A stretch of 64,000 nt of DNA from Oceanobacillus caeni. Its GTDB lineage: Bacteria > Bacillota > Bacilli > Bacillales > Amphibacillaceae. The notes under the pieces are model-generated. The model saw nothing but the letters and a program-made list of their open reading frames with translations, did not search any database and was not told where the DNA came from. Numbering within the stretch: the stretch's first letter is position 1; every line of letters begins with the position of its first letter. This document shows positions 6,454 through 8,134 of the stretch, piece by piece. The position numbers and the translations under genes are program-made. The stretch spans positions 1 to 64,000 of the forward strand of contig NZ_JAHHXM010000013.1 of assembly GCF_019037185.1 (NCBI RefSeq). The letters run 5' to 3'.

Positions 6454-6456
6454 TTA

Positions 6457-6493
6457 AAAATCATCACCTAAAAAATGGGTGATGATTTTTTTA
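6457..6493 (+). terminator. Intrinsic terminator after camS
   Basis: AAAATCATCACC (6457-6468) pairs perfectly with GGTGATGATTTT (6478-6489), and the T-run continues to 6492. It closes the pcrB-camS transcription unit. Confidence 0.9.
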
Positions 6494-6572
6494 TTTTGGG
6501 AAGGCTCACAAGAATCTATTGTTAATTAAGGAATCTAGCTATAATTTTTCTAATATAAAACTATAGTACCTA

Positions 6573-6581
6573 TGTTATAAT
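6573..6581 (+). promoter_or_regulatory. Extended -10 promoter of the RRNPP regulator
   Basis: TGTTATAAT matches TGnTATAAT exactly, 46 bp upstream of the regulator start and downstream of the camS terminator. No consensus -35 is visible. Confidence 0.6.
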
Positions 6582-6627: not shown

Positions 6628-7902
6628 ATGGGTATTTTGATAGAGATTGGATCTTTTATTAAATTGCAACGCACTAAGAAAGGAATGACACTAGGGGAAT
6701 TAGCTGATGGTATCGTTTCTGTATCCTACTTGTCCAAAATTGAAAATCTAAAAACCCAAGCAAGTCCTGAAATTATTCAGTTACTTTGTAATAAGCTTGG
6801 TATCAACGTAGACAAGAGTAAAGAGCCCATAATTAAAGAGAAATGTGACCAATGGTTTAGCATGCTTTTTGAAGTGAACGATAAAGAGGATATTATTGTT
6901 ACCTATAAAGAACTACAGGAATTAATGGATACCAATATATCTGATTATATACTCCTGTTTGAAATACATAAAATTAGGTATTACCTCTTGATTGGGGAGA
7001 CATCCCAAGCTTATAATAAAATGGAAGAGCTCAATGAAATGAGCGATGACTTTGACAATATACATAAGTTCTATTGGTTTAAGTATAGAGGAAACTATTA
7101 TTCTGTTAAAGAGGATTACAGTAATGCCTTAGAAATGTACAACCAGGCAGAAACGCTGTTCAAGTTTACGAACTTAGAAGAACATGAGATAGCAGATGTC
7201 TACTATCTTTTGGCAGTTACACATAGCAAGCTGAGAAACACATTAGAATCTATTGACTTTGCGAATAAGGCATTAGAAGTTTATATGAAACAATATAACT
7301 TTGTTCGCTGTGCCCAATGTCATAATATTTTAGGTATATCATACAGAAGAATTAGGATGTATGATAAAGCTATAAAAAATTATAATCTAGCATTACATTT
7401 AGGTAAATTGAACAATAACAAAGCTATTATCCAATTAACGAACCAAAACCTTGGTCATTTATACTCTGTAAAAGGAGATTCAGAGGAAGCAATTAAACAT
7501 TATCTAGAAGTATTGAATGATAGCGAAGTTTCACCGTCTAGCAGATTAACTACCTTAGCATCATCCGTAAGTGAGTACTATCAAGCTGGAAGATATGAAG
7601 AGGCAAAAGAAACCATACATATTGCCTTCGAATTAATGAAAGAATTAAAAGAGGAAACACATAGGTTGAGCCATTATACGATTCATATTTATCACCATCT
7701 TTTAAATGAGGAATGGGATAAATTTGAAAATGTAATGGTTAACGAGCTCTTACCTTACTTAAGGAAAACAAAAGACTACGCAAATATTATTATATTTAGT
7801 AGTCTACTTGCAGATTTCTTTGAAAAACGGCAACGATACAAGGATGCGGCTAAGTATTATAAGGTAGTCAATTTTGCCTATAGGCAAATTGCTAATATAT
7901 AA
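6628..7902 (+). CDS. RRNPP-type transcriptional regulator (HTH + TPR, NprR-like)
   Basis: A 424-residue protein with an N-terminal XRE-type helix-turn-helix (about residues 8-62; IKLQRTKKGMTLGELADG then VSYLSKIEN) followed by tetratricopeptide-type helical repeats to the end (for example ALEMYNQAE, AIKNYNLALHLG, AIKHYLEVL). Length and layout match peptide-bound quorum-sensing receptors of the NprR group; PlcR is much shorter. In that family the TPR domain binds a short re-imported peptide encoded directly downstream, and such a gene begins here 18 bp after the stop. An in-frame TTG at 6637 is an alternative start. It has its own extended -10 promoter. Target genes are unknown. Confidence 0.85.
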   Translation: MGILIEIGSFIKLQRTKKGMTLGELADGIVSVSYLSKIENLKTQASPEIIQLLCNKLGINVDKSKEPIIKEKCDQWFSMLFEVNDKEDIIVTYKELQELMDTNISDYILLFEIHKIRYYLLIGETSQAYNKMEELNEMSDDFDNIHKFYWFKYRGNYYSVKEDYSNALEMYNQAETLFKFTNLEEHEIADVYYLLAVTHSKLRNTLESIDFANKALEVYMKQYNFVRCAQCHNILGISYRRIRMYDKAIKNYNLALHLGKLNNNKAIIQLTNQNLGHLYSVKGDSEEAIKHYLEVLNDSEVSPSSRLTTLASSVSEYYQAGRYEEAKETIHIAFELMKELKEETHRLSHYTIHIYHHLLNEEWDKFENVMVNELLPYLRKTKDYANIIIFSSLLADFFEKRQRYKDAAKYYKVVNFAYRQIANI

Positions 7903-7920
7903 AAAAGGGGGGCTATGTAA

Positions 7921-8058
7921 ATGAAAAAAGCATTGATGATTATAGGTCTTGGTGCTCTACTAGCCACTGGGGTTGCTTTTTCGGTTTTACCAAATGACTT
8001 AGCAATCGAAGTGGAGCCAGGGATTTTCTTTATTGGAAACTTCCTATCTAATTTTTAA
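7921..8058 (+). CDS. Probable exported signalling pro-peptide (45 aa)
   Basis: A 45-codon ORF with a good ribosome site (GGGGGG, 7907-7912) 8 bp before its ATG. The product begins MKKALMIIGLGALLATGVAF, a classic short signal peptide, followed by a mainly polar or acidic stretch and a hydrophobic C-terminus (IFFIGNFLSNF). It lies 18 bp downstream of the HTH-TPR receptor gene on the same strand and is followed by a terminator. This is the NprR/NprX, PlcR/PapR and Rap/Phr arrangement, in which the mature signal is usually a 5-10 residue piece near the C-terminus. The exact mature peptide is inference. Confidence 0.75.
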   Translation: MKKALMIIGLGALLATGVAFSVLPNDLAIEVEPGIFFIGNFLSNF

Positions 8059-8098
8059 TATCTTCATATTTTTTACGCTTTAATTTTAAGAAGACAGA

Positions 8099-8134
8099 GC
8101 CGGATTAGTATTTACTTTTCCGGCATTTTATTTT
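8099..8134 (+). terminator. Terminator after the signal peptide gene
   Basis: GCCGGA (8099-8104) pairs with TCCGGC (8119-8124), followed by ATTTTATTTT. It would end the receptor-peptide transcript. Confidence 0.7.

Follow-up and report, generated by a model that had tools for sequence, protein, structure and literature searches.

The window, that is, the whole 64,000-nt stretch of Oceanobacillus caeni DNA analyzed here, contains a receptor gene followed directly by a small propeptide gene; this is a real receptor–propeptide pair of an already known type, and it very probably constitutes a self-contained quorum-sensing system of the NprR type. The pair consists of the following features:

6628–7902, + strand: NprR-type receptor gene (ATG at 6628, stop codon at 7900–7902, 424 aa), encoding an N-terminal HTH_3 DNA-binding domain and a TPR superhelix predicted to bind a peptide (Pfam, fold).
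7907–7912, + strand: G-rich ribosome-binding site of the propeptide gene, recognized from the sequence; the ORFs of relatives have similar G-rich sites.
7921–8058, + strand: propeptide gene (putative pheromone precursor), 45 codons, MKKALMIIGLGALLATGVAFSVLPNDLAIEVEPGIFFIGNFLSNF.
8014–8031, + strand: predicted pheromone core EPGIFF, lying within the conserved AIEVEPGIFFI (8002–8034).

According to Pfam, the HTH_3 domain of the receptor occupies residues 11–62 (E = 6.1e-11) and is followed by matches to TPR families. Comparison of the single sequence with PDB gave NprR 4gpk as the best match (E = 1.7e-16), and the profile search returned the same structure (E = 4.9e-24) with Rap proteins next. 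The AlphaFold model of the receptor, based on an alignment of 66 receptors, had a mean pLDDT of 92.1 and consisted of HTH helices and a TPR superhelix. The Foldseek search with this model placed apo NprR 5dbk first, ranks 1–36 of the listing being NprR or Rap chains, and VIA-align gave close similarity to Rap 4gyo (Z = 34.9, rmsd = 3.2, 348 aligned), NprR 5dbk (Z = 31.7, rmsd = 4.5, 353 aligned), and NprR 4gpk (Z = 30.1). Thus, both fold and sequence place the window receptor with NprR and Rap, and a plain Rap identity is excluded because of the HTH domain. The original prediction of an HTH–TPR receptor of NprR size was therefore borne out by domains, fold, and PDB matches, with 424 aa against 423 aa in NprR. 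The genome of the window contains one such receptor at E-values of up to 1, and the nearest named relatives belong to Oceanobacillus (88% identity with O. sp. Castelsardo and 63% with O. salinisoli).

In the fold comparison, Rap structures reach scores as good as those of NprR, and NprR is reported to have both functions (PMC4970707, available text), so that the receptor might chiefly be a phosphatase of the Rap kind or a protein that binds Spo0F, in which case the peptide would switch this activity off and DNA binding would be a secondary property. We regard this as improbable: the receptor has an HTH domain, and residues D107 and Y118 of B. thuringiensis NprR, which contact Spo0F and are required for the control of sporulation, align with S105 and K115, next to which no conserved D or aromatic residue was found in the receptor alignment. 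Residues Y223 and F225 of the window receptor, identical in all 24 receptors of the genus, align with Y223 and F225, which form the tetramer interface of B. thuringiensis NprR according to PMC4970707 (available text). The NprR pocket residues H201, R343, N306, and D309 were not visibly retained in the profile alignment.

The propeptide begins with MKK, which is followed by a hydrophobic stretch and a short mature part; its N-terminus is signal-like, and A-x-A/S cleavage sites occur in only 17 of 81 propeptides. Its ATG lies 18 nt behind the receptor stop codon, the G run ending 8 nt ahead of it, and the positions originally given for the receptor, the gap, and the 45-codon ORF with its ribosome site were all exact. 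The occurrence of such an ORF was assessed in 113 places, which are all that the family search gave up to an E-value of 1.8e-125 (24 in the genus, 6 additional given loci, and 60 and 23 fetched), a sample which includes several receptors of one genome of genus g38. The ORF was recognized by a ribosome-like site, a basic N-terminus, a hydrophobic stretch, and nearness to the receptor stop codon. It was present directly behind 98 of the 113 receptors (81 of 90 and 17 of 23, the window for the ORF start being 20 nt wider for the set of 23 than for the set of 90), as the original prediction had proposed to check. By this rule, 15 receptors had no ORF (L018–L024, L114, L115, L178, L186, L190, L191, L194, and L199); since a ribosome site followed by a 28-codon ORF is present in L178, and a repeat-bearing frame with a different start in L186, about 13 receptors truly have none. 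The propeptide ORF of the window differs from that of its nearest relative by 13 synonymous and 5 non-synonymous base changes, the changed residues being 4, 23, 41, and 43 with none at 24–40, which indicates that the ORF is under purifying selection. The arrangement exceeds chance, given its recurrence and this ratio of substitutions. Consequently, the claim of an RRNPP-type receptor with its own propeptide gene was upheld by fold, sequence, locus plan, and adjacency.

The conserved part of the propeptide is internal and corresponds to [EH]-P-[SG]-[IV]-[FL]-S, with EPGIFF as the window version. Among the single-copy propeptides, the core could be set on a proline in 66 of 69, with E or D at position −3 in 61 and S at position +4 in 43 of these 66, neither of which was imposed; the P itself and the I/V two places on were partly fixed by the search pattern. 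The pattern [EHKQ]P.[IVL][FLVYI] was found in 74 of 81 propeptides versus a mean of 2.25 in shuffled ones. In 11 propeptides, the core is repeated in tandem (3 to 10 copies with a spacing of 13–17 residues); the propeptides of L195 and L196 carry three copies each, and L009:2799-3353 (genome G007) encodes a 184-residue propeptide with ten AMDKHPGVL-type units. The extreme tail evolves fast, two of the four non-synonymous codon changes falling at residues 41 and 43. Because the conserved, tandemly repeated segment is the internal core, the signal peptide is most likely excised from an internal part of the precursor rather than from its tail. The extreme C-terminal peptide was rejected as the signal because of the internal conservation and the tandem copies; the original prediction, which had taken the hydrophobic C-terminus for the mature signal and found it unlike NprX SKPDIVG, was thus mistaken on the first point and compared the wrong segment on the second, EPGIFF in fact resembling SKPDIVG. 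Of 81 propeptides, however, 69 end with F, Y, or L, which speaks for some function of the tail, as far as can be judged from the sequences. Since the EPGIFF core differs from SKPDIVG, a new specificity of the window's signal is plausible.

It should be noted that the four genomes of genus g38 (G138–G141, loci L181–L189) each contain several receptor paralogues, and the propeptide cores of this genus have diverged (LQPNPT, RPPSPT, and YEPKPL). A more distant receptor paralogue, L029:1501-2730 (−), precedes an ORF of 71 codons that carries two copies of the NDEHPD type. On a Mesobacillus foraminis plasmid, a "hypothetical protein" with repeated EE(L/F)PPPLAP units is encoded behind an NprR-like receptor (L177:2072-2485).

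Export signals alone do not suffice for a pheromone, trimming and binding being predicted steps, and folding of receptor and propeptide as one chain gave no confident placement of the propeptide (residues 439–476 all with pLDDT <50), as might be expected if the small ORF encoded a microprotein that is secreted or sits in the membrane and has an independent function. Such a role appears very improbable in view of the strict adjacency to the receptor, the confinement of tandem repetition to the core, and the resemblance of the core to SKPDIVG. As the receptor's signal, the precursor would be exported via its signal-like N-terminus and cut on both sides by extracellular proteases to yield a short peptide around EPGIFF, which an oligopeptide permease would re-import; five SBP_bac_5 substrate-binding proteins of the oligopeptide-permease type are encoded in the genome. 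The peptide would then sit in the TPR groove of the receptor encoded upstream and alter its DNA binding. By analogy with NprR, this would convert the peptide-free form into a DNA-binding tetramer.

Seven Oceanobacillus receptors at the same locus have no peptide gene. In the tree of 90 receptors, these seven orphans form one clade (on a long branch of 1.06 changes per column) adjoining the multi-copy L009 and L013, and L114 and L115 form a second orphan group; both groups are nested within ORF-bearing clades. As read from the sequences, a terminator-like hairpin lies directly behind the receptor stop codon in six of the seven orphans and further on in L020. Receptors without the ORF, which the original prediction had named as evidence against the pairing, do occur (15 of 113), but their nested position would fit derived losses. 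Multi-copy propeptide genes were found by eye at three separate places of the tree, and an automatic count, made against other labelled rows only, gave 2 changes per label. The 81 ORF-bearing receptors share 88 columns with a conservation of at least 95%, and 13 of these were changed in all seven orphans: 2 of 22 at residues 1–62, 3 of 18 at 63–160, 8 of 36 at 161–300, and 0 of 12 at 301–424. In the second orphan group, the corresponding numbers were 1, 0, 7 (of 36), and 1. Five control pairs of ORF-bearing receptors had 0, 1, 2, 2, and 6 changed columns (of 30 to 34) at 161–300. The concentration of orphan changes in this region is suggestive only, and the pattern is not specific to orphans, since the control pair L107/L108 had 6 of 34 conserved columns changed there.

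The pair is located in a housekeeping region, as originally stated, with ligA and camS (Pfam CamS, E = 8e-106) upstream and gatC downstream. Of 90 loci, 85 have camS or the P5C dehydrogenase gene on the upstream side and gatC or putP on the downstream side (the assignments of P5C dehydrogenase and PutP were verified at a single locus, L061); in the 24 loci of the genus, only camS and gatC were found where the stretch allowed. In many relatives, the pair lies between the genes of P5C (glutamate semialdehyde) dehydrogenase and the sodium/proline symporter PutP, as at L061:60-1187 (+) and L061:3257-4777 (+), and a link of the pair with proline use is possible. The following elements precede the receptor gene in the window:

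6456–6490, + strand: camS terminator, a terminator-like stem of 15 pairs, separating the pair from the ligA–camS side.
6546–6559, + strand: diverged copy of the family promoter motif TTTCCCAATATGAA, with 3 mismatches.
6573–6581, + strand: extended −10 element TGTTATAAT, corresponding in the alignment to the TATGnTATaAT conserved among family promoters.

The 10-mer TTTCCCAATA was found in 75 of 90 upstream regions, whereas the best shuffled 10-mer was found in 4. Upstream of TATGnTATaAT, TTTCCCAATATGAA was exact in 57 of 90 loci and had at most 3 mismatches in 82 of 90; these matches are the best places within 260 nt, and a 3-mismatch match such as that of the window is weak alone, its position relative to the −10 element being the same as in L002. 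The pair would probably be controlled through this conserved motif at the receptor promoter, either by the receptor or by a different factor. A regulon sharing the motif was looked for and not seen. With up to 2 mismatches, the 18-nt motif occurred 36 times in 20 genomes; 14 of these sites belong to receptor promoters and 22 lie elsewhere (11 with the reversed-pattern control), and 15 of the 17 inspected non-receptor sites lay inside reading frames of more than 133 aa. The palindrome TTTTCCT(4-7)AGGAAAA occurred 24 times in 13 genomes, with 12 of the sites at receptor promoters and the other 12 elsewhere (control 17). Upstream of TTTCCCAATATGAA, for example in L058 and L062, GGAAA/TTTCC inverted repeats were observed that seem to covary with the motif (ACTTTCC with GGAAAGT, and ATTTTCC with GGAAAAT).

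Behind the propeptide stop codon, 60 of 81 loci have TTTTTTACCCTATTA with no more than 2 mismatches and, after it, a terminator-like hairpin, the loops being GTGTGGAA or GCGTGGAA in 41 of 61; three more loci (L013, L074, and L091) scored above 60 bits with the covariance model. This conserved 3' element consists of TTTTTTACCCTATTAC and a hairpin with a GYGTGGAA loop, as in L058:1953-2017 (−) and L012:1226-1293 (−); in the window, it is represented as follows:

8069–8133, + strand: diverged 3' RNA element with a hairpin at 8099–8124 (covariance model R1, 28.4 bits).

After one fuzzy match (L096) was removed by hand, 96.6% of cells in the 60 aligned copies paired, 9 of the 11 stem pairs had changes on both sides (reached in 6 of 500 shuffles), and the covariation score was 0.434 versus 0.265 in shuffled alignments. 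The first 16 nt had a pairwise identity of 93%, a value inflated by the selection of matches with few mismatches, versus 31% and 35% in the flanking 20 nt; the receptors averaged 59%. The covariance model gave 66 matches in 65 of 159 family genomes (E = 0.01 or better, strict filters), all of them 148–833 nt behind a family receptor on the same strand. A set of 249 genomes of the order, which includes some members of this family, had three with a match; two of these belong to the family, and the third matched weakly (E = 0.008). The 23-nt pattern of the element had two further 3-mismatch matches elsewhere in G101 and G141. In eight loci searched, Rfam gave no match to the element. The Rfam Bacillaceae-1 RNA was observed at L100:1416-1480 (+), adjoining a receptor paralogue (48.3 bits, gathering threshold 35). 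A coding function of the element was excluded by single-base insertions in the linker and loop among aligned copies. Pairing with the ribosome sites of the receptor, the propeptide, and the next gene gave no clear signal (mean z = −0.71, −0.19, and 0.10, respectively).

The window hairpin is stable (−14.5 kcal/mol, z = −4.38). The 28.4 bits of the window copy were obtained with filters off and 501 nt searched; a default-filter search covering the entire window did not list the copy, a chance-like match elsewhere reached 25.0 bits, and its case rests on its position. The earlier claim that the pair has its own promoter and terminator therefore holds in part: the extended −10 lies at the conserved family promoter place and the hairpin follows the pair, but the former is absent from the list of the sigma-70 consensus scan and the latter from that of the terminator scan.

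The 3' element may simply be a conserved terminator; its conserved single-stranded part and loop would speak for something more. It is conceivable, although we hold it to be somewhat short of probable, that the locus is dual, with one transcript carrying both the peptide signal and a regulatory 3' RNA, in which single-stranded UUUUUUACCCUAUUAC precedes a hairpin of 11 bp with the loop GYGUGGAA; this RNA would be inherited with the pair, occur about once per genome, and act beyond termination. In that case, the window keeps only a diverged copy of the RNA. The erosion of the non-coding elements also raises the question of whether the system is being rewired or is decaying in this lineage: the promoter motif has 3 mismatches in the window versus 1 in the nearest relative, the flanking palindrome TTTTCCT..AGGAAAA was not found in the whole genome of the window, and the 3' element scores 28.4 bits versus up to ~95 in relatives. 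Both frames are open, however, and the propeptide is under purifying selection between this genome and the nearest relative, and we consider such a fate unlikely. If the NprR-type system is functional as proposed, it would place peptide signalling in the same chromosomal neighbourhood throughout a family of halotolerant bacilli, with the likely signal named for each species, and the natural series of single-copy, multi-copy, and signal-less relatives would allow tests of receptor–peptide coevolution; the 3' element, if confirmed, would be a new RNA family.

Among known systems, the pair is closest in plan to NprR–NprX of the B. cereus group (B. thuringiensis 407, Bacillus sp. S51107), with which it shares an HTH and TPR receptor of the same length and a propeptide gene of nearly equal length (45 versus 43 aa) directly downstream; for Bacillus sp. 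S51107, an NprR of 423 aa, an NprX of 43 aa, and the peptide SKPDIVG are given in the available text of PMC5641580. In EPGIFF, P and I/V are spaced as in SKPDIVG, and the tetramer residues Y223 and F225 of B. thuringiensis NprR are kept. Unlike NprR–NprX, the window pair has a different peptide core and is chromosomal, between camS or P5C dehydrogenase and gatC or putP; its receptor has only ~21% identity with NprR in the fold alignment, and the Spo0F-contact residues D107 and Y118, a trait of the B. thuringiensis member and not a definition of the subfamily, are not kept. With Rap–Phr, the system shares the TPR superhelix, the small downstream propeptide, and tandem pheromone copies, which are known there (PMC11343458 and PMC5199041, available text), whereas Raps are without the HTH domain.

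The plasmid receptor of Priestia koreensis FS-1 has 33% identity with the window receptor over 98% and is followed by a 45-codon ORF annotated as a hypothetical protein with the core IEKEPGPLKS. NprR–NprX systems on the plasmids of this strain are counted in the available text of PMC10075063, where family membership requires an identity of at least 30% with a family reference over 80%; by this measure, the window receptor stands at ~21% to B. thuringiensis NprR and at the above values to the Priestia koreensis plasmid receptor. The FS-1 pair differs from that of the window in being plasmid-borne, with neither the 3' element nor the promoter motif found nearby, and neither was seen in the three plasmid relatives checked. 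In the available text of PMC9765709, PMC11343458, and PMC5199041, no mention of the two elements was met.

The available text of the NprR survey PMC9765709 reports NprR in 21 genera, including Virgibacillus, repeats in 17 of 17 unusually long NprR propeptides with up to six identical copies, and receptors without a propeptide, termed eavesdroppers; the words Oceanobacillus and orphan are absent from its main text. Pheromone repeats numbering 1 to 4 and internal pheromones are described in PMC11343458, and duplications in nprX genes in PMC5199041 (available text of both). The ten copies in L009 exceed the six stated in the NprR survey. No literature linking NprX, NprR, or RRNPP to Oceanobacillus was found in a search that left most subscription papers outside its range. 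Since NprR genera, repeated propeptides, and peptide-less receptors have already been reported in surveys, the window pair is of a known type; the pair, the tandem copies, and the orphans are all known kinds, to which the window adds a member with its own signal.
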